Of a stretch of 13,445 nucleotides of DNA, positions 3 to 12,237 are shown in pieces. The translations under genes were made by a program, and so were the position numbers. Position 1 is the first letter of the stretch, and each line of letters begins with the position of its first letter. This DNA comes from Alistipes sp. (lineage in GTDB: Bacteria; Bacteroidota; Bacteroidia; Bacteroidales; Rikenellaceae). A model generated the notes under the pieces. The model did no database searches and had not been told where the DNA came from. It saw only the letters and a program-made list of their open reading frames with translations. The stretch spans positions 1-13,445 of the forward strand of contig JAFOXS010000068.1 of NCBI GenBank assembly GCA_017391665.1. The letters run 5' to 3'.

Positions 3-197
3 TACATAAATGCCTGTATCAGAGCATTCGCCAAGCGTTTTAGGCTCTCGGTGCAGAGTGCTTTTGAGTACCTTTATAACTTTAAGGGTATTCACTTTTT
101 GGTGGAGTTTTATGAGATTGAGCACTTGCAGTCGATTGATGATGCAGTGGATGACCTAATCGTTTGTTGCCAAAATAATGGAGGAACGCTCAGATGA
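3..197 (+). CDS. DUF3791-type small protein, 5' end outside window
   Basis: The frame is open from the window edge to a TGA at 195-197, giving 64 visible residues that begin YINACIRAF and end NNGGTLR. The FAKRFRLSVQSAFEYLYNF stretch followed by HFLVEFYEIEH matches what I recall of the DUF3791 family: a short all-helical protein with a helix, a 'sv..af.yl...g...fl.e.Ye.eH' core and an acidic tail. Usual length is about 65-80 aa, so only the first few residues are missing. The stop overlaps the next start as ATGA, which indicates translational coupling. DUF3791 genes commonly sit beside DUF3990 genes, as here. A role as antitoxin or partner of the DUF3990 protein is inference only. Confidence 0.72.
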   Translation, partial: YINACIRAFAKRFRLSVQSAFEYLYNFKGIHFLVEFYEIEHLQSIDDAVDDLIVCCQNNGGTLR

Positions 198-664
198 AAC
201 TCTACCACGGAACAAATATAGATTTCAAAGTGATTGATTTGACCAAATCCAATAAGTACAAGGATTTCGGCCAGGGTTTCTATTTGACCGACATTCGCAC
301 GCAGGCAGAAGAACTCGCGGCGAAGAAATCTCGACTCTTCGGCGGTTATCCCGTTATCCAAGAGTATGAGTTTGACGAATCCTTGTTGGCAAGTGCTGAT
401 TTGCACGTTTTGAAGTTTGATGCCCCAACAACCGAATGGGCAGAGTTTATTTTCAAGAATCGTAATAGAGGGTCTAAATTCACTCACGATTACGATATTG
501 TAATTGGTCCAATAGCCAATGACGGCGTTGCCTATCTTTTGGGTAGATATGAGGAGGGTACGCTCACTATTGAGGAACTGAGCAAGAAGTTGGATTACCG
601 CAAACTCAATAGCCAATACTTTTTCGGCACCGAGAAATCACTTAAATACTTGAAACGCCTATGA
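194..664 (+). CDS. DUF3990 family protein, ADP-ribosyltransferase-like fold, putative toxin/effector
   Basis: A 156-aa cytosolic protein with no signal peptide or membrane segment. The N-terminal YHGT (residues 4-7), FGQGFYLT (25-32) with helix-forming AEELAAKK behind it, the central YDIVIGP (about 99-105) and the C-terminal SQYFFGTEKSLKYL block follow the DUF3990 pattern. That family is placed in the ADP-ribosyltransferase fold group: an early H/R strand, a G-x-G-F-Y strand, then a late Q/E strand. Length is normal for the family. The ATG at 194 overlaps the upstream stop (ATGA) and its own TGA at 662-664 overlaps the next ATG at 661, so this is the middle gene of a tightly coupled trio. That architecture fits a toxin with small partner proteins. 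Actual ADP-ribosyl transfer and the target are inferred, not shown. Confidence 0.8.
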   Translation: MKLYHGTNIDFKVIDLTKSNKYKDFGQGFYLTDIRTQAEELAAKKSRLFGGYPVIQEYEFDESLLASADLHVLKFDAPTTEWAEFIFKNRNRGSKFTHDYDIVIGPIANDGVAYLLGRYEEGTLTIEELSKKLDYRKLNSQYFFGTEKSLKYLKRL

Positions 665-1258: not shown

Positions 1259-2140
1259 TTACCAGCCACCTTCAACTTCGCCGCCAATATCCACGTGGAT
1301 TTGATCAGGGTTAGAGTTAATGGTTAGCGAGATGGTATGCTGAACTCCCGCTTTGAAGTAGAAAGTATCTTCCAATAGATACGAGATGTTGCCAGCAATC
1401 AACTCAATAAATGGGCGACGAGATGTTACTCGCTGGGGAATGATAATAGCCTCGTACGTATCGTCTGCCACCTTGCGAGCCTTGATAGTTGTAGGCTCTC
1501 CGAAAATATCCTTTACCACTGCTCCTGTTGTAAAATCAATTGTCGCCGTGGGCACCACGTTGTGAATATATAACGAAGCCGAAGTCGGGAAGTCTCCCAC
1601 ATAGTCGTCGCCCTTAACTAACTTCACAATCAGTTTTGAACAACTATGCTTAAACTCCAATGCAACTGTCTCGTCTGCCTGCGATACACCTGTAGCCTTT
1701 GCCCAAAGAAAGTCAGATGCTTCATATCCTCCCAACTCTCCATTCTCACCCTCTATTGATTGGTCGAGCGCCACAGCAAAAGGATGCAAGTCAATCGATG
1801 ATGGTGTCATATAGGGATAGTATCCATATACATCCATCTTATTCTCGCTCCAGAAAATCTTTTTTGCTGTGCTCCACGCTGAGCCATCATAAGTGGTCGC
1901 TACGTTATTTGCCCAGTTTCCCGAAATTTGCAAAGGAGAGGCTACATCACCTGTATAGTCGGTCACATATACGCCAATCTTGTCGCCATCCTCAAAACCC
2001 GTTGCTGTTGCTCGTGTTGCTGAGGGGTGTGTGGCTGTAATCTGCATCACACTCTCCTCGGGTACAAGTATCTCTTCATTCTTACTGCAACTTGTCATCA
2101 AAAGAGTTGCAACCGCCAAAATCAAAATATTCTTTTTCAT
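1259..2140 (-). CDS. fimbrillin family (Mfa-like) lipoprotein, last gene of operon
   Basis: A 293-aa surface lipoprotein. The signal peptide ends in LLMTSC with lipidated Cys18, followed by SKNEE, an acidic stretch like the Bacteroidetes lipoprotein surface-export signal. ATRATATGFEDGDKIGVYV (from about 42) carries the conserved TR site before the first pilin strand, where P. gingivalis fimbrillins are cleaved for donor-strand assembly. The DVYGYYPY and ASDFLWAKA blocks are shared with the two other fimbrillin domains here, so the three are paralogues. The Mfa_like_1 domain fills most of the protein. It starts 18 nt after the protease gene with a good Shine-Dalgarno (AGGAGAG about 8 nt upstream). 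Likely a structural subunit of a type V pilus or related surface fibre; whether shaft, anchor or tip cannot be told. Confidence 0.88.
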   Translation of the reverse strand: MKKNILILAVATLLMTSCSKNEEILVPEESVMQITATHPSATRATATGFEDGDKIGVYVTDYTGDVASPLQISGNWANNVATTYDGSAWSTAKKIFWSENKMDVYGYYPYMTPSSIDLHPFAVALDQSIEGENGELGGYEASDFLWAKATGVSQADETVALEFKHSCSKLIVKLVKGDDYVGDFPTSASLYIHNVVPTATIDFTTGAVVKDIFGEPTTIKARKVADDTYEAIIIPQRVTSRRPFIELIAGNISYLLEDTFYFKAGVQHTISLTINSNPDQIHVDIGGEVEGGW

Positions 2141-2158
2141 AGTTCTTCTCTCCTTTGA

Positions 2159-5100
2159 TTAGTTGTTAGACTTCTTGAAGTTTGGCTTCTCGCCCATAAA
2201 TACGGGTGCTGACTGTCCCTTTGCTGCGTATGGAACTCCGCTCTTCGAACGCGTTGATGCAATTACCTCTGCCTCCTCTGTAGCCAATGGAATATCGTTT
2301 GCCTTGAACGTGTCGTAAGAGTAAGTTAAGCCCGCATATTGCATTATTCGCTTTACTATAGCCTCACGCGAAATAGCCGAGAAGTAAGGAACATTGTTGT
2401 TCATACAAGAGTTTGACTCTGAACGGAACACACCGCGAGTATGGAAGAAACCACCCTCGTAAATATCTACCGTGCCTGAGAACTGCGGATCGAAGATCAT
2501 ATGACTCCAAGGCACTTTGTTCATATCGCCCGACAAAGAGAGGTTATCATAGAATCCGTAAGATTTCATCAAGTTGAACTCCTCTACGTGCTCGTGCCCA
2601 TTATTCGTGCAAGTGCTGATAAAGTTGTTCACGTATATATACTCATCGCCCAACTTACCAAATGCGTGACCTCCTGCTTCGTGCTGAACGACACCTCGGA
2701 AATCGTAAGGATACTCATCTTCGCTCATCGGGCATAGTGCGATAGCCGAGCCATCACCCCACATATAGGTAATTCCGTCGTAGTCATAGGTATTCTCCAC
2801 CAATACGATAGGTGTTTGGCTGATATTATCCTCTGTTACGGTTGGTGCTTTGCAAGCATACTCAAAGCAGATATTTTCGTTAACACCTACCGAGCCCGCA
2901 GCCTGTAAACCATACTGTGAGCCAAACTTCGCCTCGCGAATTGTATTCACTGAGCCTACTCCGCTGTCGGCAGAAAGACCGATTACGGTGTAGATATTGA
3001 AATACTTCTTGTACGACTTGTAAGGCTCTACGGCAAAGAAGTGCTTGATTGCCTCGTTTACGCCAGCGAGATATTTGCCCGTAGCAATATCCTGTGCATC
3101 GAAGCAGTCGCCCATAAAGACAATATTCACTCCGTTGCCCTCGCTTGCGGTCTGGTTTGTTATCACCTTGCCGTCGTAGTGCTCATAGTTGTACTGCTCA
3201 ACTGTTGTTGTCGAACTGTAATCCTTGCCCGTAAGGTGGAATACGACCTTGCCTGAACGGCCATTGTATGAGGTCTCCACAATGTTACCATTTGTGTTAT
3301 AGGTCTGCACCTTGAATGTGCCAACATCACTTGCCGTCATCTCGTTTACAGTAACTGTTACCTCTGTTTTACCTACTCCGCTTGATGGAGTTACAGTAAT
3401 CCACTCGGGAGCCTCTACTGTCCAAGCCGCATCAGCCTCGGCACGCAAAACGAGAGTCTTGCTGTCGCTGGCATTAAGCGTGCGGAATAGATTGCGAGAG
3501 ATAGAGAAATCTCGGTGTGCTGCAAAGCGAAACTCTTTCCATACAGGAGCCGTTGAATACTCCATTACCGCGGCCTCGGGAACCTCCACAGTAAAGTTAT
3601 CCTTTGCTACGCCATTAAATGCCGTAGATGCTACTGTAGGTGGTGTTGTAGCCTTACAAGTAATTGAGTTTAATTGATAGCAATTTTGGAAAGCATTTGC
3701 ACCAATATTCTCCATCGTACGAGGCAAGATAACGCCCTCTAACTGCTTACATCCATAAAAAGCAGATGCAGGAATAGAGATAATATCGTTAGGAATCTCT
3801 ACAATGCCTGTGAGGCGAGAGCAATCCTTAAAAGCGGATTCACCTAATGATGCTAATTCTTTAGGTAAAATTAATTTCCCGCTAAAATTATTACCCGAGA
3901 AAGCGGCTGCTCCAATAACTGTAACACTCTCTGGAATATTTAATTGCCCCTTAAATTTACAACCAGAAAAGGCACTGCCTTCAATAGTCACAATGTTTGA
4001 TGATAAATAAAGTTGCCCATCAAAACCGCAACTAGCAAAACATCCAGCATCAATATATGATATTTTGGGAGGAATGGATAACGAGCCTGATAATCCAGAA
4101 CAACCACCGAATACACCATCAGATTCATCATTACCAAGCATCGTTAGCCCTTTAGGAAGATTAAGAGTTCCTGTAAACCCTTTGCAATGATAGAATGCTC
4201 CGCCTTCAATTATTTCAACTGATTCAGGAATATTAAGTTCTCCATTTAGGTTAGTACAACTATAAAAAGCTCCTGCTCCTATTGTTTTAAGGTTTTTAGG
4301 CAATGTCAATGTTCCATTTAAAGTTGAAACTCCATAAAATGCCATATCCTTAATAACCGTTACATCCTGAGGGATGATAAGTGAACCAGTAAGACTAGAC
4401 CCAGAAAAAGAAGCCGAACCAATTGATGTTATGTTGTCTGGGAATATAAATCGTACAAGGGTCTTTTTCTTATTAAGCGCATAATTTGGAATCTCATTGG
4501 CTTCGCCTGAAACAGTATGAATATTTTTATTTGCAGTAATTGTTACCTCTTTCAAATTCAGCGACTGCAATTTAGTCATATCATCACGCATAAAGACAAA
4601 GTCGCGATTATTGATATAACCCGTAACCTTCAGATTTTTAATGTCAGTGTAATCGTATCCAGCCTCCTCAATCGCCAATTTTAGTGCGCTCTCATCCGCT
4701 TTTGCCTCGGGCACATCAATAATAATATACTCACGTGCTGATGCATCGTGTGAGGTGTTATCGGTCTCCCACGCAGTGATGCTATTGCCTAACAACTTAA
4801 ACTCCAGGCCGCTCTGGCTCTTCTTCGACACCTCGATTGAGAACTTATGCAATTTGCCTGACAGATACTCAAAATCTGCGGTTGCACCATCTACACGATA
4901 GCGGAATGTATAGGGAATGCCATCCACCGTGAGAGAGAACATTGCCATACCTGCCGACAAAGTCTGTGGAACAACAATAGCACGAAAATCATCGCCGCTC
5001 AGATAAGGCACGGTGCCTGTTGTGGGGACATCTCCCGTAGCAGTAACCACACCCGTAGCGAGGTCGATGGTAGCCTTACGTTTGGTGTTGGTAACAAGAG

Positions 5101-5704
5101 CCGATTTCTCAACCTGTGCCCACTCGCCTTCATTCCAACCTGTACCCTCGACAAGAGTAATTTGCACGCCAGCCATACGGTGGTTGAATTTGAGGTTGAT
5201 GCGTGAAGCCGTAGGCGTAATATCGGCTGCCTTACCCCACAGAAAATCTGATGCCTCATAGCCACCCAGCGCACCATTGGTTGCGGCAGTAGATTGGTCT
5301 TTCTGCACCTCGAAAGGATATGCGCCAATAGATGCGGGATTAGTGTAGGGGTAGTATCCGTAAATATCAACGTGGGTATTACGGTCACGGAAATATACGT
5401 CCTGCTCGGGAGTCCACTTCAAATTTGCCTCATCGTAGATATACTTCACGTTATCGGCTTGGTTGCCCTCGACCTGTATAGTACCACTTGAGCCATTCTC
5501 AAAGTTTACGACATAGATACCTACGGCATCACCGTCGCAGAATCCCTCATCGTTCACGCGCGTTGTAGGCACTTGAACAATCTCATTGTACAACTGAATC
5601 GGCAGAGATGGATCATTCTCTGGTGCGATCAGAATATCGTCTGTACGGCAGCTACACAATGCCACCGCTATAAGACAAAGGATTGATAATTTTTGTGCTT
5701 TCAT
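2159..5704 (-). CDS. surface lipoprotein: fimbrillin domain + BspA leucine-rich repeats + BACON + M64 metallopeptidase
   Basis: 1181 aa from the ATG at 5704. An in-frame ATG 48 nt upstream is rejected because only the downstream one opens a signal peptide (MKAQKLSILCLIAVALCSC, lipidated Cys19) and sits just behind AAGAAG. Domains: fimbrillin/Mfa-like about 50-294 (TTRVNDEGFCDGD, DIYGYYPY, ASDFLWGKA); linker 299-418; 11-12 BspA-type LRR_5 repeats 419-704 (IPESVTVIGAAAFSG pattern); BACON 736-829 (AAWTVEAPEWITVTPSSG); peptidase M64 839-1129, starting near VNIVFMGD. The metal site is HEAGGHAFGKLGDEY at 1008-1022, with an extra Gly compared with plain HExxH. M64 is the IgA-peptidase family. The fibre-type N-terminus with a C-terminal enzyme suggests a fibre-tip adhesin/protease. 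Substrate unknown; IgA cleavage is not shown. Confidence 0.9.
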   Translation of the reverse strand: MKAQKLSILCLIAVALCSCRTDDILIAPENDPSLPIQLYNEIVQVPTTRVNDEGFCDGDAVGIYVVNFENGSSGTIQVEGNQADNVKYIYDEANLKWTPEQDVYFRDRNTHVDIYGYYPYTNPASIGAYPFEVQKDQSTAATNGALGGYEASDFLWGKAADITPTASRINLKFNHRMAGVQITLVEGTGWNEGEWAQVEKSALVTNTKRKATIDLATGVVTATGDVPTTGTVPYLSGDDFRAIVVPQTLSAGMAMFSLTVDGIPYTFRYRVDGATADFEYLSGKLHKFSIEVSKKSQSGLEFKLLGNSITAWETDNTSHDASAREYIIIDVPEAKADESALKLAIEEAGYDYTDIKNLKVTGYINNRDFVFMRDDMTKLQSLNLKEVTITANKNIHTVSGEANEIPNYALNKKKTLVRFIFPDNITSIGSASFSGSSLTGSLIIPQDVTVIKDMAFYGVSTLNGTLTLPKNLKTIGAGAFYSCTNLNGELNIPESVEIIEGGAFYHCKGFTGTLNLPKGLTMLGNDESDGVFGGCSGLSGSLSIPPKISYIDAGCFASCGFDGQLYLSSNIVTIEGSAFSGCKFKGQLNIPESVTVIGAAAFSGNNFSGKLILPKELASLGESAFKDCSRLTGIVEIPNDIISIPASAFYGCKQLEGVILPRTMENIGANAFQNCYQLNSITCKATTPPTVASTAFNGVAKDNFTVEVPEAAVMEYSTAPVWKEFRFAAHRDFSISRNLFRTLNASDSKTLVLRAEADAAWTVEAPEWITVTPSSGVGKTEVTVTVNEMTASDVGTFKVQTYNTNGNIVETSYNGRSGKVVFHLTGKDYSSTTTVEQYNYEHYDGKVITNQTASEGNGVNIVFMGDCFDAQDIATGKYLAGVNEAIKHFFAVEPYKSYKKYFNIYTVIGLSADSGVGSVNTIREAKFGSQYGLQAAGSVGVNENICFEYACKAPTVTEDNISQTPIVLVENTYDYDGITYMWGDGSAIALCPMSEDEYPYDFRGVVQHEAGGHAFGKLGDEYIYVNNFISTCTNNGHEHVEEFNLMKSYGFYDNLSLSGDMNKVPWSHMIFDPQFSGTVDIYEGGFFHTRGVFRSESNSCMNNNVPYFSAISREAIVKRIMQYAGLTYSYDTFKANDIPLATEEAEVIASTRSKSGVPYAAKGQSAPVFMGEKPNFKKSNN

Positions 5705-5715
5705 CTTCTTGTGTA

Positions 5716-5850
5716 TTATTCGGCTGTACCGCCGAAGTCCTCGGTTCCCCATCCATTTACATCCATCTCTACTCCATTCGATTGAGCAAAGCCTTGCTCA
5801 ACTCTGATACAGAGTATTTCGATTTGGGGTTCCTCGTAAATACATTTCAT
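5716..5850 (-). CDS. 44-aa peptide encoded between fimbrillin and protease
   Basis: The start chosen is the ATG at 5850, 10 nt after the fimbrillin stop; the TAA at 5716-5718 lies 11 nt before the protease start, so it fits exactly in the operon gap. A longer reading from 5925 would overlap the fimbrillin and is rejected. No signal peptide. The order is a short basic start, YEEPQIEILCIRVEQGFAQS, then an acidic tail ending NGWGTEDFGGTAE. Similar short peptides with a 'P.iEii.v.vE.GFA.S' core are, from memory, frequent in Bacteroidales, often near fimbrillins. Its tail resembles the C-terminus of the adjacent 304-aa fimbrillin (GGWDTDDNEYGGSAE). Function unknown; a chaperone, assembly or secreted-peptide role is speculation. 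Confidence 0.7.
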   Translation of the reverse strand: MKCIYEEPQIEILCIRVEQGFAQSNGVEMDVNGWGTEDFGGTAE

Positions 5851-5860
5851 AGGATTGGAG

Positions 5861-6775
5861 TTATTCTGCCGAACCACCATATTCATTGTCGTCAGTATCC
5901 CAGCCGCCGATACCAATATCAACACCTCCTGCTGACTTATTGACTGTTACGATGAACTTGTGCTGCTTGTTAGCTACGAATGTCGCACTTGATGCGAGAG
6001 TATAATCTACGCCATCCACATTAACCGTGATGAGGTCTGTGCCATCGGCAACTGTCTGAGGAACGATCATCGCACGATAGTACTCGCCTACATTCCACGG
6101 GGTAACGGTTGCTACGTCACCTGTTGCAGTGGCTACACCAGTTGAGAGGTTAATGGTTGCTGCCGTTTTGATATTTTTGATTTTGACAGATTTGGTGGCA
6201 GCAGCCAATGTCTCTGTAGTGAAGCCTTTGCCTGCCTCCAAATAAATTAGAATATTGCTGAATGAGTGGTTTGTGGTAATAGCAACGGGCTCTGCAGTAG
6301 GAGCCACGTTAGCCGCCTTGCCCCACAAGAAATCGCTTGCAAAATAGTTTGCCTCGGTGCTCTGGTCAGTCTGTACAGAGAATGAATGAGCCGAGGTGCT
6401 AGCGGATGCACTGTACGGATAGTAAGCGTAGAAATCTGCGTGAGTGGTTTGATCCTTCCAATAGATAGCAGATGCGGGAGTCCATGCTGAACCACCGAAA
6501 GAGAACTGCATATTGTTGACGTGGTTGCCAGATGCTGCAAGAGTTCCCGCAGTAGAGCCGTTGTAGTTCACAACATAGATACCGACCTTATCGCCATCCT
6601 CAAATGCGGTATCATTGGCACGGGTATAGTTGCCAATAGAGAGGTTGATGGGAATTTGCGCCTGCTCCTGAGGAGTTGGTTCGGGGGTAGTGGTAGGCTC
6701 GGGTGCCTCACTCTTGGATGAGCAAGATGACAAAATTGTGCAGACCGTAGCTGCAAGAATGAAAAGTTTTTTCAT
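5861..6775 (-). CDS. fimbrillin family (Mfa-like) lipoprotein, probable major subunit
   Basis: 304 aa. The signal peptide ends ILSSC (Cys18), then SSKSEAPEP and a Pro/Thr/Glu-rich spacer (about 23-40). NYTRANDTAFEDGDKVGIYV (49-68) gives the TR processing site (Arg52) and first pilin strand. FYAYYPYS and ASDFLWGKAANVAPTA are the shared core blocks of the Mfa_like_1 family, and the C-terminal half follows the usual 'G.YYRAMIVPQTV..G' fimbrillin pattern. It is the first fimbrillin of the operon, 6 nt after the 149-aa gene, with no clear Shine-Dalgarno. The C-terminus, GGWDTDDNEYGGSAE, is echoed by the next small gene. Likely a polymerising subunit of a type V pilus; no usher or Mfa1/FimA-specific partner genes are visible. 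Confidence 0.88.
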   Translation of the reverse strand: MKKLFILAATVCTILSSCSSKSEAPEPTTTPEPTPQEQAQIPINLSIGNYTRANDTAFEDGDKVGIYVVNYNGSTAGTLAASGNHVNNMQFSFGGSAWTPASAIYWKDQTTHADFYAYYPYSASASTSAHSFSVQTDQSTEANYFASDFLWGKAANVAPTAEPVAITTNHSFSNILIYLEAGKGFTTETLAAATKSVKIKNIKTAATINLSTGVATATGDVATVTPWNVGEYYRAMIVPQTVADGTDLITVNVDGVDYTLASSATFVANKQHKFIVTVNKSAGGVDIGIGGWDTDDNEYGGSAE

Positions 6776-6781
6776 AGATTA

Positions 6782-7231
6782 TTATATTTTGATAGTTTTG
6801 ATATTCGGTATTTCTGTTGTCTCATCAAACTCTCGCCAAGAGTTATCGGTATTGTCACAAGAGAATTTTTGGGATATTATATATTTGCCGTACATTTCCC
6901 AAATTTCTTTGATTTTATCCTCTGAGTTATCCCTCGTTATTGGATTGTGTATGGCAAGTGTGGCGTTGCGAATAACCATTGCATCTATGGTGTTACAGTA
7001 TGTTATGCCGACAATTCCCTCTCCAACTTCAAAAATGTCTTCAAATATTTTTCTTAGACATATCGAACTATGTAAATCTTCATCCGATAACTTGCCGAGA
7101 TAATGGTATACTCCAATGAGAAAAGGTAATGTTGGGCCGATTTTAAACCCAAATTTTTTTCGACCTTCATCTGATAGAACTTGTTGCCAAATGGGTAGAA
7201 TAGCACTCATATTGTTTTGACTTTTTGCCAC
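6782..7231 (-). CDS. 149-aa protein of unknown function, first gene of fimbrillin operon
   Basis: No family recognised. The protein has no signal peptide or lipobox, so it is probably cytosolic, unlike the rest of the operon. It is mixed helical, with LPIWQQVLSDEGRKKFGF near the start, a PTLPFLIGVYHYLGKLSDEDL stretch (about 34-54), a GEGIVGITYCNTIDAMVIR block in the middle and a helix KEIWEMYGKYI near the end. The GTG start at 7231 is chosen because AGGAG (7236-7240) lies 4 nt upstream; ATG at 7210 is the alternative and would remove 7 residues. Its stop is 6 nt from the fimbrillin start. As the first gene behind the putative invertible promoter it could be a regulator or assembly factor, but that is position only. 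Confidence 0.65.
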   Translation of the reverse strand: MAKSQNNMSAILPIWQQVLSDEGRKKFGFKIGPTLPFLIGVYHYLGKLSDEDLHSSICLRKIFEDIFEVGEGIVGITYCNTIDAMVIRNATLAIHNPITRDNSEDKIKEIWEMYGKYIISQKFSCDNTDNSWREFDETTEIPNIKTIKI

Positions 7232-7557: not shown

Positions 7558-7860
7558 GATAATTAGAGTATATTTTCTTCCACAAATTTCTGCAAAACAA
7601 ATTTCATGCGCAATAGCCATTGTCGTTGAAGATGAATTTTGTTCTACTTACTTTGGGATATTATGTTTCGTCTTAGTCTGTATTAGCTTTGAGTGTGTTG
7701 GTATATTGAACTTAACGCATCAAAGTTTGCCGTTGTCGGCAAGAAGTGCATGTCTGACGGCAATATTGCTCAAAATACTTGCCGATAACCATAATGTATC
7801 AGGTAATCAACTTAGGTAGTGCTATTCAAATCACCCCCCCCCGATCCTATCCCAATAATA
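7558..7860. other. noncoding stretch upstream of the putative inverton
   Basis: No convincing gene: an 87-codon + strand frame (7556-7819) starts inside the inverted repeat, resembles nothing and is Cys/Ile-rich like a chance frame. The stretch holds an imperfect 12-bp inverted repeat (7732-7743 with 7778-7789, 11 of 12 matching), an overlapping perfect 6-bp hairpin (7727-7742, TTGCCG/CGGCAA) and a run of nine C (7834-7842). If the neighbouring segment inverts, its promoter would fire into this region. Confidence 0.5.
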
Positions 7861-7898
7861 AAAGCCCAACAGACTGTTCTGCTGGGCTCTTGCTTTTT
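7861..7898. terminator. bidirectional terminator
   Basis: AGCCCA at 7863-7868 pairs with TGGGCT at 7883-7888, extended by a CAG/CTG triplet after one mismatch. A T-rich run follows on the + side (7889-7897), and on the - side TTTTATTATT follows directly. It closes the winged-helix unit read from the right and can stop transcription from the left. Confidence 0.75.
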
Positions 7899-7953
7899 GT
7901 GCTATGTATTACATTGTGTATGCCTTTGGTGGCTTAGGTCGATTCTGCTTCTC

Positions 7954-8760
7954 TCATAAGTACTGGTCGTAGAGAGTTTGCAATTTGAGTGGCTTGAGAA
8001 AATACTCTATAGAAACCTCTGGTGGCAGTTGCTGTGGACAGCGTTGTTCGAGATTGTGGCGTAGATCGATATATGGATTCTCGCGGTAGTCGGCTAATGG
8101 CCGATACCTTGCCCCTATAAACTCCAATGCTACTCTGCTCTGACTTTTGTAATCACGAAGCCTTGAACCGTGCTGCTCGCAGAAGATTCGTAACGTCTCG
8201 AATACCTCTTTATCCATACTCCGTAATGCGTCGTTTATGAAGTAATCGCCAGTAAGCCTATAACCTCATTCGTCTTGCGTTATAAGGCCGTGCCGTAGGC
8301 ACTCTTCCAATAAGGCAGAAACCGTGTTACGAGCCATACCTATGCCATCGGCTATCTCTCGTTTATTTCAGCCTATGGTGTTCGAGCCGTTAATGCAGAC
8401 ACACTTCAGCAACAGCAGAAAGCCTGCTATCTTCGGATCATAGCCTTGCTGAAAAAACTCTCTGTCGAGCATAAAGAAGTTACGCATCCTAAAGTCTGTG
8501 TAATAGGTGTTATGGCGAGTGGTCTCATCACTAAAATGGGTGATGATTACCAGTAATTTCGATTCCTCCAAACGGCGAATGCTTCTACGGATGGTTCGCT
8601 CATTTATGTTGGTTAGCTTTACCAGCTTCTCTATTGTTACGTGGCTCTCGCCATCTTTGTAATTCGAGCAACTGCGGATGGTGGCTCATACATATGCATC
8701 AAGAGGTTTGCTGTTACTCTTTATCTGTATGAGACTTTTGGGTAGGGTAATGTAACTCAT
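7954..8760 (-). pseudogene. double winged-helix protein with in-frame TGA codons: UGA=Trp recoded gene or opal pseudogene
   Basis: From ATG 8760 one frame stays open for 268 codons except for TGA at codons 25 (8686-8688), 131 (8368-8370) and 165 (8266-8268). A fourth TGA is codon 269 (7954-7956); reading through it adds 15 residues to TAA at 7909-7911, just before the terminator. The frame has no TGG, no TAA or TAG inside and no frameshift. Each internal TGA falls where Trp is plausible: AYV-x-ATIRS, TIG-x-NKREIA, QDE-x-GYRLT. Two winged-helix units are visible: about 46-75 (TIEKLVKLTNINERTIRRSI) and 132-158 (NKREIADGIGMARNTVSALL), each followed by a wing-like segment. Two winged helices recall Rep_3 plasmid initiators, but no family is established. 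Under the standard code only 24 residues would be made. Confidence 0.7.
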
Positions 8761-8893
8761 CGTTAGCAATGTGGTTAGTGGTGAACAGGATCTCTTGTTT
8801 GTGGAGCATACGTCTGAAACGTGATACTCCGTAGTGTTGTTTGGCCTGCTTACGCGTTTCAAAGCAGAGTCCAGTGGACGGGTTGTAGTACAT
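8714..8893 (-). CDS. 59-aa basic protein, first gene of the winged-helix unit
   Basis: Starts at ATG 8893 (MYYNPSTGLCFETRKQAKQHY) and ends in TAA at 8714-8716. No signal peptide; the middle is basic with GVSRFRRMLHKQEI. The 'G..F.t...A...yGvs' pattern resembles short modular DNA-binding units (NUMOD-like), but this is a weak pattern match. The last 47 nt overlap the start of the winged-helix gene in another frame, which suggests translational coupling and means the two are probably always co-expressed. It is the first gene after the strong promoter at 9076-9107. It contains no TGA or TGG codon in frame, so says nothing about the code. It could be a regulator of the downstream gene. Confidence 0.6.
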   Translation of the reverse strand: MYYNPSTGLCFETRKQAKQHYGVSRFRRMLHKQEILFTTNHIANDELHYPTQKSHTDKE

Positions 8894-9075
8894 CGTACGA
8901 GACTATTATATAGGTAATAGTAAATAAGGTAGGTATTCTATATATAGGACAGTTTTGAGCATAATCCACTATCCTCTGCGGACACTTTTGAGCATCCTAC
9001 CTACGCTTATCAATCTTCGACTTAATCTCTGGAATCAGCCCTCAAGAACAAGGGGCTATCTGCGGTTTGATGGTG
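8894..9075 (-). promoter_or_regulatory. leader of winged-helix unit with AT-rich tract and direct repeats; candidate operator or origin
   Basis: Contains two 16-bp direct repeats (8947-8962 and 8980-8995), a very AT-rich stretch (8903-8946) and a 7-bp inverted repeat bracketing the repeats (AGGTAGG near 8928, CCTACCT near 8995). No gene is seen. The layout suits a protein-binding operator or a small iteron origin for the adjacent winged-helix protein. Confidence 0.4.
8947..8995. repeat. iteron-like direct repeats, two copies 33 bp apart
   Basis: GGACAGTTTTGAGCAT (8947-8962) and GGACACTTTTGAGCAT (8980-8995) differ at one base. The 33-bp period is about three helical turns, placing both copies on the same face of DNA. 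Confidence 0.65.
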
Positions 9076-9159: not shown

Positions 9160-9999
9160 ATGAGCGCAATGTATTATACAATGAATGAGTTTAGGTCTCA
9201 TTGGCCTTATCTTGAGAAGTATTATGATTCTTGGGTACGCTACTATGAAAAATGGCTAATCCCTGCGTACAAGGTATCAGGTAGAGATACATTTAGTTTC
9301 TTGCCAATGTTTAATAAAAATCCGTCATTAGATATTTTCCCTGATGATGTGGTCGTTGCTATAGAGATGCCATATTTAAATGAAGTTCGAGCTCTGTTTT
9401 CATCTTACAAGCAGTTCTATCGCACCGATGTGTTACAGGTATTATTACTTGCTCCATTTAATCATCCTTCATTACATCCTGCGGCGGGCAATGATGTCGA
9501 TTGGTATTCAGTGTCCGAGGAGAGCGATATCGCTTGTTTGCATGAGTTTCTGCGACAGATGGAGATTAAAGGTAAAACATCCAATATGAGGTTATCGATA
9601 AGTAACGGCAAGGCAAGCCTAGTTATAGGTAACCATACCCAATGGCTCAATAGATGTATCAAGTCATATGTTGATCGGCACACAAAGTTATATGGGAAGG
9701 CTCCCGTTAAGGCTGCATTTCCGATTATGCCGAAAAGAAGACCTTCATTCGAGTCGTATCTTGCATACAACACTTTGCGCTATCTTCGTTCTGTCTTCGA
9801 GATCAAAGCGTTCTTACCTCATAGTTTGTGCGAGTTCATCTGTCACTATGTCAATATAGTATTATGCCATTTGTCAGAGGTTGTCAGTGACAATATGGCA
9901 CATGAAAAGTTGTCGTACAACCAAGTCTATACGATGCTTAATAATAACAAAAAGAGTTATGGAGATACGTGTATCCCTATTCAATATGTAAAAATATAA
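9160..9999 (+). CDS. 279-aa protein of unknown function
   Basis: Not recognised. No signal peptide or membrane span; the N-terminus is aromatic-rich (YLEKYYDSWVRYYEKW, about 18-33). A central predicted-helical part includes HEFLRQMEIKGKTS. A basic patch MPKRRPSFESY lies near residue 190, and the C-terminal part has several Cys and His (SLCEFICHYVNIVLCHLSE, about 222-240) that could be a metal site or a buried helix; the spacing fits no motif I know. Five Trp are all TGG, so this gene uses the standard code. The start could also be ATG 9169 or 9181; 9160 is kept for length and distance from the -7 box. Ends TAA; 100 nt separate it from the 175-aa gene on the same strand, possibly one transcript. 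Probably element cargo. Confidence 0.65.
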   Translation: MSAMYYTMNEFRSHWPYLEKYYDSWVRYYEKWLIPAYKVSGRDTFSFLPMFNKNPSLDIFPDDVVVAIEMPYLNEVRALFSSYKQFYRTDVLQVLLLAPFNHPSLHPAAGNDVDWYSVSEESDIACLHEFLRQMEIKGKTSNMRLSISNGKASLVIGNHTQWLNRCIKSYVDRHTKLYGKAPVKAAFPIMPKRRPSFESYLAYNTLRYLRSVFEIKAFLPHSLCEFICHYVNIVLCHLSEVVSDNMAHEKLSYNQVYTMLNNNKKSYGDTCIPIQYVKI

Positions 10000-10099: not shown

Positions 10100-10627
10100 A
10101 TGAAAAAGAAAATTTCTTTTACTCAGACTGCATCAGAGGTATCTGGCATGAAGAGCGCTGCAGAGAGCGAAATCTCTAAGAAAATATGTTTGTTTGTTGA
10201 GCTGGATGACATGAAGGGTAACCAGATCGGAGAGGTCACCTTGGAGAGTATCAAGGTAGATGAGGATACCACAGAATGGCAAGGAGCTTTTTGGGCTGTT
10301 GTCAGAATGGCGAACTATGCTAATAACATTCCCTCCATTGTGAGAGGTAACGAGGCTAAGTTTGAGGATATGACAAGGGCCGCAGCAGCTAGCTATGCAG
10401 ACCTTAACGTGTTCTATACACACTATCAGCAAATGGTGGATGAGTTAGTGCTGTCATCCAAGTTTATTGAGGACTGCAATGCCATGAACCTCGATCTACA
10501 AGCTGTGGCACAGCACCTTGTATTTGAGGGAGAGCTGATGTACTCCGTTGTCAAGGAATTTGGCCCTAGGTGCTTCTATCGTACGATGATCGAGAAGTTC
10601 AACGATCCGATCTATACATTGGAGTAA
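10100..10627 (+). CDS. 175-aa acidic protein of unknown function
   Basis: Not recognised. Soluble and acidic, no signal peptide. It opens with Lys-rich MKKKISFTQTASEVSGMKSA, then a strand-rich segment (ICLFVELDDMKGNQIGEVTL, about 29-48), then a long helical part (ALA-rich MTRAAAASYADLNVFYTHYQ at about 91-110, followed by helices to the end). Trp codons are TGG. Upstream is AT-rich (TTTTTATAAAA) without a Shine-Dalgarno, usual in this phylum. A strong hairpin follows its TAA. It stands between the 279-aa gene and the convergently oriented recombinase, so it is probably part of the integrated element. No evidence on function. Confidence 0.65.
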   Translation: MKKKISFTQTASEVSGMKSAAESEISKKICLFVELDDMKGNQIGEVTLESIKVDEDTTEWQGAFWAVVRMANYANNIPSIVRGNEAKFEDMTRAAAASYADLNVFYTHYQQMVDELVLSSKFIEDCNAMNLDLQAVAQHLVFEGELMYSVVKEFGPRCFYRTMIEKFNDPIYTLE

Positions 10628-10791: not shown

Positions 10792-12003
10792 TCACAGCAG
10801 ATGTTTCATCGCCTCGTCGATTTGCGAGTTCTCGAAGGAGTCCAAGTAGATTTGAGTTGTTGAGAGGTCGGAGTGCCCCAACGATTCCGAGATTATGGCG
10901 ATATTTACGCCCGACCGCTTCAACACCGTAGCGTAGGTATGACGTGCAACGTAGGTGGTTAGTGGTACTCGTAGGCCAATCATCTCACCCAGTACTTTCA
11001 GTTCCCGATTAACCTTTCGTAGCACTTTATGTGTGCGGTTGAAAATCTGCTGTGGAGTTATGTGTATGAGCTTGTCAAGGATAGGGAAAATGTAGTCGTC
11101 ATACGAATGTCCTACACGCGAATATTGCTCGATTACCTCCATTGCCTTTGGCATAAGTCGAAACGATAGCAACTTCTGCGTCTTGTTGCGGGAGTATGAG
11201 ATCCGACCATTTACAATGTCGCAGTAACGCAGGGTCGCAATATCCGTAAAGTTCATACCTGCCGTATAGTAGGAAAAGAGAAAAAGATCTCGAGCAAAAA
11301 CTCTATAAGACAGCCTGCTACCTCTCGCCAATTCCAGCTCCGCCAATCGCTGTACATCCTCTTTCGTGATGGCTCTTTTTCGAGTTTTAGCCCATAGGCT
11401 ACCGACTTGATAGAGGCTAAAAGGATTCTGTTTTGCGTTTATTTTTCCCTCCCTGATGGCTTTGTTATAGATAGCCTTGAATATGGCGAAACGTGTGGCT
11501 ATGCTGTTGTCGATATTCCCTCGTTGGCGGAGGAATAACTCCAGTCCTTTCAGATAATCTGTATCGATAGCCTCTAATGCGATAGAGGAGGGTTTGTATC
11601 GACTTATAAGGTGTAGGGCATATTTGTGCTTTGTGGCAGAGTTTATCTTGCCAAGAGCCTCCAATCGGTGTATCTGCTCAAGAAACCCATCTTCGACAGT
11701 TATACGACCATCGTTTGCCTTACGCTCAAGCAGTGTTTCGAATGTTACAGGAATATCCAAAGCCTCCAATCTCCATATCTTCTTCTCATAGCCTCGAATC
11801 TGCTCATTTAGGCGAAACTGCAAATCGTCTCTATTCGGACAGTCGAGAGTAATTTGTTGTGCCATATCATCCCAAAATCGGGGATTTATAGCAACGCCCG
11901 TTGAGACCTTTTTTCTGCGCCCTTCGTGATAAAATTGGAGATAGAGAGGTGCTTCTCCCTGCTTGTTTGCCTTGTCGGCTCTGCAAATAATCTTATAGTT
12001 CAT
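10792..12003 (-). CDS. tyrosine recombinase/integrase, IntDOT-like Bacteroidetes type
   Basis: 403 aa, normal for integrases of Bacteroidetes integrative elements. N-terminal arm-binding region 1-90 (PLYLQFYHEGRRKKVSTGVA), SAM-like core-binding region about 105-200, catalytic domain about 210-403. Catalytic features seen: Lys in the beta-hairpin near 274-278 (NKTQK), YVARHTYAT with Arg354, LGHSDLSTTQIYL with His377 and nucleophile Tyr386. Two canonical residues differ: the first Arg position in YYTAGMNFTDI is Asn251, and the HxxR His is Tyr351. Replacement of the first Arg is known for the CTnDOT integrase. It is transcribed away from the tRNA-Thr gene, 162 nt from the tRNA 3' end, which suits an element integrated there. 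A locally acting invertase is the alternative, but the arm-binding domain favours integration. Confidence 0.9.
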   Translation of the reverse strand: MNYKIICRADKANKQGEAPLYLQFYHEGRRKKVSTGVAINPRFWDDMAQQITLDCPNRDDLQFRLNEQIRGYEKKIWRLEALDIPVTFETLLERKANDGRITVEDGFLEQIHRLEALGKINSATKHKYALHLISRYKPSSIALEAIDTDYLKGLELFLRQRGNIDNSIATRFAIFKAIYNKAIREGKINAKQNPFSLYQVGSLWAKTRKRAITKEDVQRLAELELARGSRLSYRVFARDLFLFSYYTAGMNFTDIATLRYCDIVNGRISYSRNKTQKLLSFRLMPKAMEVIEQYSRVGHSYDDYIFPILDKLIHITPQQIFNRTHKVLRKVNRELKVLGEMIGLRVPLTTYVARHTYATVLKRSGVNIAIISESLGHSDLSTTQIYLDSFENSQIDEAMKHLL

Positions 12004-12156: not shown

Positions 12157-12165
12157 GATTTCCAG

Positions 12166-12237
12166 AGCTGAATCCGAGACTTGAACTCGGGACCCCTTCA
12201 TTACGAGTGAAGTGCTCTACCACTGAGCTAATTCAGC
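12166..12237 (-). tRNA. tRNA-Thr (anticodon CGT)
   Basis: 72 nt, reading leftwards from 12237. Acceptor stem GCTGAAT/ATTCAGC pairs perfectly; T8-A9, D stem GCTC/GAGC, anticodon stem CTTCA/TGAAG with loop CTCGTAA (anticodon CGT at 12203-12205, codon ACG, Thr), and the T loop contains GTTCAAGTC. The discriminator is U; CCA is not encoded. Adjacent to a recombinase gene on the 3' side, so its 3' half is the probable attachment site of an integrated element; the gene is intact, as expected when the element restores the 3' end. Confidence 0.95.

Follow-up and report, generated by a model that had tools for sequence, protein, structure and literature searches.

Why should a single gene among standard-coded neighbours carry four in-frame UGA codons? 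The question is raised by a stretch of 13,445 nucleotides (nt) from Alistipes sp. (contig JAFOXS010000068.1 of assembly GCA_017391665.1), which is referred to at its full length as the window; the host genome is a draft of 1.97 Mb in 356 contigs. On the reverse strand of the window, a frame of 283 codons runs from the ATG at 8760 to the TAA at 7911-7909, with TGA at codons 25, 131, 165 and 269 and without TGG, inner TAA or TAG, or a frameshift. An earlier note on this DNA had described this frame, and its account proved exact, as did its count of five Trp codons, all TGG, in a neighbouring 279-aa gene and its statement that the recombinase and a DUF gene (the DUF3990 gene, 194-664) stop at TGA. 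Sequence comparisons indicate that the UGA codons of this gene stand for tryptophan (Trp) and that the gene is probably functional. Moreover, these codons probably act as a selected translational lock on the predicted replication initiator of an element inserted at a tRNA gene.

The gene belongs to a family that can be followed across related genomes. Searching 268 genomes of the host's bacterial family identified 18 places in 14 genomes, 12 of which are full-length copies spread over 10 genomes (one genome has three), and the counts given here use these 12. The places left out are a partial copy at a contig edge that retains its UGA (L012), broken remnants in two genomes (L013/L018 and L014/L017), and a distant standard-coded relative (L015). 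Each full-length copy has 2–4 in-frame TGA codons, and the pooled copies contain 32 TGA and 3 TGG without any inner TAA or TAG, a TGA load that is far beyond chance. The copies diverge to about 38% protein identity, yet all keep the same two UGAs, at codons 25 and 131 of the window copy (core sites 1 and 2; UGA1 and UGA2). The small open reading frame (ORF) upstream has an in-frame UGA of its own in all eight copies of clades B and C and in none of the five of clade A (L012 included), where Arg or Cys is found instead; with this extra UGA, each of the 12 operons holds 3–4 UGA codons. Among 393 genomes drawn from the order, one further relative (L134) was found, which has no internal stop, and more distant standard-coded relatives (L041–L045) occur in Bacteroides, each as one continuous protein. 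No relative was found among the viral contigs searched, in phages (queried with a clade A protein only), or in plasmids (queried with a clade B protein only).

The identity of the residue encoded by UGA is suggested by two observations. In the codon alignment of the 12 copies, column 209 is TGA in three copies, TGG in two, and Arg or Tyr elsewhere. At core site 1, Tyr or Phe is present in all seven standard-coded loci (L041–L045, L134, and L015, whose residue rests on two of three pairwise alignments), although the number of independent cases is below seven because L043–L045 are near-identical. Together, the exchange of UGA with UGG and the aromatic residues at core site 1 argue that UGA is meant as Trp, in agreement with what had been proposed from the window alone. 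At core site 2, Tyr is found in five of the seven loci and Pro in L041 and L042, so that the expectation of related residues at the TGA sites of homologues held in full at the first site and in part at the second.

A conserved, in-frame UGA could also be read as selenocysteine, and one host (G005) has a tRNA-Sec match of 46.0 bits, just under the cut-off of 47 bits. However, this is the top match, none of the ten hosts exceeds the cut-off, and in each host the highest-scoring match is, according to ARAGORN, an ordinary tRNA-Ser, tRNA-Val or tRNA-Leu. Moreover, UGG takes the place of UGA at one site in some copies, and relatives have Tyr or Phe aligned with UGA. Folding of 31 stretches downstream of the UGAs revealed neither a hairpin common to all copies nor a consistent hairpin of the selenocysteine insertion sequence type; five of the 31 stretches, from three places in the tree, have z below -1.9 (four near -3). 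Selenocysteine was rejected on the tRNA-Sec, hairpin and codon-exchange evidence, and we consider it the most improbable of the explanations weighed here.

The gene might instead be a relic in which G-to-A changes turned Trp codons into UGA, the rival that the earlier note had put forward. Under the standard code, the gene would terminate at codon 25, and broken remnants of the family do exist. The ratio of nonsynonymous to synonymous substitution rates (dN/dS) is, however, 0.06–0.22 (Nei-Gojobori, for pairs where dS is computable) rather than near 1, and the window copy is free of frameshifts. The corresponding ratio of proportions (pN/pS), pooled over nine close pairs, is 0.03 before UGA1, 0.14 between UGA1 and UGA2, and 0.21 after UGA2. 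Purifying selection acts before, between and after the core UGAs, and a protein constrained past both stops is not what a pseudogene would show. The shared UGAs in 12 of 12 full copies, the lack of inner TAA or TAG and this constraint led to rejection of a pseudogene, which would be very hard to credit unless the UGAs were artefacts in all the separate assemblies.

A third possibility is that UGA1 and UGA2 are true stops and that the pieces are made as separate proteins by reinitiation. Each piece is an open frame, and database records for Alistipes shahii, A. onderdonkii and A. communis list the portion beyond UGA2 as a hypothetical protein of 131–147 aa. In the AlphaFold2 model, however, the piece boundaries cut into both winged-helix domains: UGA1 lies inside helix 18–30 of domain 1 and UGA2 just ahead of helix 133–140 of domain 2. 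The Bacteroides relatives are each one continuous protein, and there appears to be no conserved start, as the N-termini projected downstream of UGA2 are spread across positions 141–187. Separate pieces are improbable and were rejected on the domain cuts and the scattered N-termini.

The public records themselves appear to reflect how genes are called. The part after UGA2 was found as 376 database clusters in a search that admits proteins of ~70–224 aa, so that full-length proteins could not appear. Among the 120 of these clusters listed, 41 have a contig larger than 5 kb (sizes transcribed by hand, each being the longest contig of its cluster), and all 41 start after UGA2, as would happen if gene callers using the standard code encountered a stop at that site. 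The other 79 listed clusters are on short contigs; six of them cross core site 2, four with Trp, one with Leu (P0119) and one with Arg (P0149). Of 58 longer database proteins (37 form set A1; 36 of those plus the window protein form set A2), 57 have no contig larger than 5.3 kb. On short contigs, gene callers have probably switched to code 4 and thereby rescued the gene, while the separate hypothetical proteins (P0060–P0179) in several Alistipes species are probably a systematic annotation artefact. The result is an annotation blind spot, in which the gene is either split into hypothetical pieces or, on short contigs, probably recovered only under another code. Because the fragments have named carriers in the three species above, the system is testable.

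If UGA merely stood for Trp, drift to UGG might be anticipated at the core sites. By parsimony, columns 26 and 136 have zero third-base changes each, while 28 comparable two-fold columns average 2.1 changes and only one of the 28 has none. As the core sites never drift to UGG in the 12 copies, UGA itself seems to be under selection there.

The nature of the protein has been examined through its fold and its surroundings. With X placed at the UGAs, only generic helix-turn-helix families of Pfam (HTH_36, HTH_Crp_2, HTH_24) are over cut-off. The AlphaFold2 model (predicted local distance difference test, pLDDT, 83; predicted template modelling score, pTM, 0.70) reveals one winged-helix arrangement that occurs twice. 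Foldseek comparisons with the Protein Data Bank (PDB) return Rep/RepE54 initiators at E 0.005–0.05 with template modelling (TM) scores of ~0.3–0.42, and comparisons with viral models return helix-turn-helix proteins at E 7.8e-11 and a replication initiator at E 4.7e-8. Searches of PHROGs return replication initiation and DnaD-like loader families, with best E values of 1e-6 to 1e-12 depending on the protein. Two 16-nt direct repeats lie upstream of the gene with a start-to-start spacing of 33 nt, and their motif occurs at only these two places in the window at ≤3 mismatches. Of 13 copies, 11 have the pair ahead of the gene, and the two clade C copies have a single weak match. Because of the fold and profile matches and this upstream repeat pair, the gene product is predicted to be most likely a replication initiator; it may otherwise be a transcription regulator.

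The family sits in tRNA-inserted integrative elements, which measure 13–20 kb in the four cases with resolved borders. In four of six cases tested, the 3' part of the tRNA is repeated (50–55 nt), placing the second border ~12.9, 13.7, 14.7 and 19.5 kb from the tRNA; the remaining two cases have shorter or doubtful repeats. For the element of the window, no tRNA repeat was found within the contig. BLAST comparisons indicate that the four bordered elements all share the integrase, the UGA-bearing gene, an AAA_24 ATPase and a DUF3871 gene, the last two named after the Pfam matches of the G152 copies. The slot adjoining the UGA-bearing gene holds varied cargo, including AbiH (G152), AbiLi/AbiLii (G005, with the Pfam families RloB and AAA_21), a PDC-S42 candidate (G128) and a NACHT gene (G016, L027); PADLOC matched four of the ten cargo proteins submitted. 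Among the proteins scanned, which are a part of all element ORFs, no packaging or capsid-interfering genes of the kind found in satellites resembling phage-inducible chromosomal islands were recognised. A metallo-beta-lactamase-fold protein is encoded near the UGA-bearing element of G034 (L024 1861-2982, reverse strand).

These elements are not recoded as a whole, as the earlier note had concluded from the window. The 15 other element genes counted use TGG only for Trp, and two of them end in TGA. In the integrase, AAA_24 and DUF3871 genes Trp is encoded by UGG, and an AAA_24 gene terminates at UGA. Recoding of the whole element under code 4 was rejected on this count. The suggestion that the gene came from a UGA=Trp lineage likewise fared poorly, as the copies reside in Alistipes elements with UGG genes, no relative was found in the viral contigs, phages or plasmids searched, and the UCA-anticodon tRNA that was sought in the elements was not found. 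The standard-coded relative L015 (1453-2079, in G037) has Phe/Tyr at the core sites, and its locus includes a DUF3871 gene that is 54% identical to that of the UGA-bearing elements; therefore, a sister element that lacks the lock exists.

Several candidates for decoding UGA were considered. No tRNA with a UCA anticodon was recognised by ARAGORN or Rfam in the elements examined, where a divergent tRNA could escape both, and a recognisable suppressor tRNA borne by the element was rejected. In the complete host genome G152, Rfam identifies 48 tRNAs, all 48 of which are read by ARAGORN; none has a UCA anticodon, and one is a tRNA-Trp(CCA). When paired and numbered by hand, this tRNA-Trp(CCA) (L099 1498-1571, reverse strand) has A24 in the D-stem and G27.U43 as the top pair of the anticodon stem. 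The A24 is presumably the same nucleotide as in the Hirsh opal suppressor of E. coli. G24A is named as facilitating readthrough in PMC13092985, and given A24, some misreading of UGA by the normal tRNA-Trp is possible. Throughout the genus, the tRNA-Trp is identical or almost identical whether or not a genome carries the element: it was matched in 92 of 180 genomes, mostly at 100% over 72–74 nt, including eight of the ten carriers (G000 and G125, both incomplete, were unmatched). The same D-arm is present in 11 of 148 genomes of other Bacteroidia, with A24 in all 13 matches.

These features of tRNA-Trp raise the possibility of a dosage throttle that needs no key, wherein the host tRNA-Trp(CCA) misreads UGA, a few initiator molecules are made per cell, and UGA is kept as little protein is wanted. 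The A24 and G27.U43 of the G152 tRNA-Trp would fit such a throttle, as would the finding of no other decoding factor. However, carriers of the element and other members of the genus have much the same tRNA, its D-arm recurs elsewhere in the Bacteroidia while the Bacteroides relatives of the gene are standard-coded, and 2–4 serial UGAs would be a costly means to this end. We regard the throttle as possible, if doubtful. The lock may either leak constitutively through tRNA-Trp or be opened by a suppressor that arrives from outside, such as that of a UGA-recoding phage.

The favoured reading is that the UGA codons form a lock; the idea, first raised in the earlier note, that the element depends on readthrough of UGA for the control of a regulator or initiator is the best supported. 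That the gene product is an initiator, that the UGAs lock it, and that an outside key opens this lock are inferences. In ordinary cells, release factor 2 (RF2) would terminate translation at codon 25, so that almost no full-length protein would be made and the integrated element would stay silent. When UGA suppression rises, all 2–4 UGAs would be passed and the initiator made, which would then act at the upstream iteron-like repeats. The outside key could be an opal-suppressing phage or a shift in the misreading by host tRNA-Trp(CCA). A lock is the simplest account because the UGAs are constant, the protein is constrained, the neighbours are standard-coded, and no recognisable key is on board. 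A tight off state would be useful because the firing of an integrated origin endangers the host.

A more specific version, which we hold only tentatively and think rather unlikely, is a nonsense-codon sensor, wherein the initiator is made only when a phage that recodes UGA as Trp brings an opal suppressor tRNA and the element then replicates or leaves. If so, these elements, several of which have anti-phage genes, would react exactly when such a phage infects. PMC12386605 reports a crAss-like phage that reads UGA as Trp and has a tRNA-SUP-TCA. No UGA-recoding phage tied to Alistipes turned up in the searches made. Separately, UCA-anticodon tRNAs are present in four viral contigs (L184 4571-4644, L185 4402-4477, L186 36-110 and L191 5391-5466), and those of L184 and L185 lie within long tRNA arrays that also hold tRNA-Trp(CCA).

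A number of findings weigh against a selected lock on an initiator. First, a UGA-reading tRNA was found neither in the complete host nor in the elements, and at usual leak rates at least two serial readthroughs would leave almost no protein. Next, folding yields z of ~ -3 after codon 165 (L004/L005) and after codon 132 (L011/L019), and a local stimulating structure may be present in some copies. The test for drift to UGG comprises two columns in 12 related copies, and its probability, from ~0.001 (1/28 squared) to 0.014 (Poisson), is not overwhelming. In three database proteins, core site 2 seems to be a sense codon: P0119 has Leu there and P0149 has Arg, while P0008, whose cluster includes a contig of 42.6 kb, begins shortly after UGA1 and spans W131 and W165, whose codons are probably UGG. 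UGA1 may therefore be the more constant lock. The initiator matches in the PDB are weak and rank under two RNA polymerase III/TFIIIC matches (E 0.0006), and the first winged helix fits many regulators equally well (VIA-align). Finally, AAA_24 and DUF3871 were not seen by eye near the window copy, L022 or L028.

The features of the window are collected in Table 1. The hairpin 3' of the UGA-bearing gene was first spotted by eye and is absent from the list of the consensus scan; a comparable hairpin lies 3' of L004 (z -5.4). A 71-aa ORF that overlaps the DUF3990 gene also stops at TGA. The reverse strand of 1259-6775 encodes a 1197-aa protein between two ORFs with lipoprotein-like starts; of these two, the 304-aa ORF at 5861-6775 (reverse strand) matches the fimbrillin-like Pfam family Mfa_like_1. 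In a clade C element region, L028 1275-1727 (reverse strand) is a frame of 150 codons that contains four TGA and one TGG, perhaps through chance or decay, and the other TGA-bearing frames (L021, L022, L025, L027–L029 and L031) have a fused or antisense look by eye.

Table 1. Features of the UGA-bearing gene, its flanks and the surrounding element in the window.
Feature	Position	Strand	Basis or remark
UGA-bearing gene, 283 residues, two winged-helix domains, replication-initiator-like	7909..8760	-	Pfam, AlphaFold2, 12 full-length copies (own included)
UGA codon 25, core site 1, alignment column 26	8686..8688	-	TGA in 12/12 full copies and partial L012
UGA codon 131, core site 2, column 136	8368..8370	-	TGA in 12/12 full copies
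UGA codon 165, clade A only, column 170	8266..8268	-	TGA in 4/4 full clade A copies; Lys/Ser/Asn in the other 8
UGA codon 269, private to the window copy, column 274	7954..7956	-	R, Q, E, K or gap in the other 11
Upstream small ORF, 59 aa, MYYNPSTGLCFETRKQAK..., conserved	8714..8893	-	Overlaps start of UGA-bearing gene by 47 nt
Iteron-like repeat ATGCTCAAAACTGTCC	8947..8962	-	Motif scan
Iteron-like repeat ATGCTCAAAAGTGTCC	8980..8995	-	Motif scan
Terminator-like hairpin, then U-rich stretch, directly 3' of UGA-bearing gene	7860..7891	-	-21.7 kcal/mol, z -6.0
Cargo-slot ORF, 149 aa, GTG start, TAA stop	6782..7231	-	0 Pfam, 0 PADLOC families
279-aa gene, 5 TGG, standard-coded, TAA stop	9160..9999	+	Codon count
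175-aa gene, standard-coded, TAA stop	10100..10627	+	Codon count
Tyrosine recombinase (integrase), 3 TGG, TGA stop	10792..12003	-	Pfam Phage_integrase, Arm-DNA-bind_5, Phage_int_SAM_5
tRNA-Thr(CGT), probable integration site, beside recombinase	12165..12237	-	tRNA 3' part repeated in four relatives
DUF3990 gene, TGA stop	194-664	+	Weak, sub-cut-off likeness to ART-PolyVal ADP-ribosyltransferase model

We know of no earlier description of bacterial genes that, in a host with the standard code, retain several stop codons under selection, and a search of the open-licence literature, covering titles and the openings of abstracts, returned none. Stop-codon recoding in phages was reportedly proposed by Borges in 2022 to be a timing lock on late genes. 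If the proposed lock is correct, a mobile element can be gated heritably by stop codons, and the gene would offer a concrete reporter for the purpose of gut-phage recoding and for its sensing by hosts or rival elements.

The Alistipes gene can be compared with several known systems. As in the programmed stop-codon readthrough of viruses and retroelements, an in-frame UGA would be passed to give the full protein. Programmed readthrough usually involves one stop with a stimulating context or structure; in contrast, the Alistipes gene has 2–4 UGAs and no structure common to all copies. The two winged helices and the upstream direct repeats are reminiscent of RepE54 of plasmid F and of phage O and DnaD-like loaders, while the lack of an initiator Pfam family over cut-off and the UGAs in the gene set it apart from RepE54-type initiators. 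The use of UGA for Trp in genes of a mobile element within a standard-code gut host resembles that of phages with code 4 or 15 and a suppressor tRNA, such as the crAss-like phages covered in PMC12386605. In those recoded phages many genes are recoded and a suppressor tRNA of the phage is often found, whereas here UGA was seen in one operon only, the 15 other element genes counted use UGG, and no tRNA of its own was recognised. The tRNA-Trp(CCA) with a 4-bp anticodon stem that reads UGA, described in PMC13092985, offers a possible route by which the host tRNA-Trp(CCA) could read UGA; unlike that tRNA, the Alistipes stem has five pairs when paired by hand, the top one being G.U, and Alistipes is not mentioned in the main text of that paper. 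A further parallel is the synthetic leak dampener of PMC7969014, in which nonsense codons, opal (TGA) codons among them, keep a regulated gene tightly off until a suppressor tRNA opens them. Unlike this man-made dampener, the arrangement in Alistipes is a natural one.
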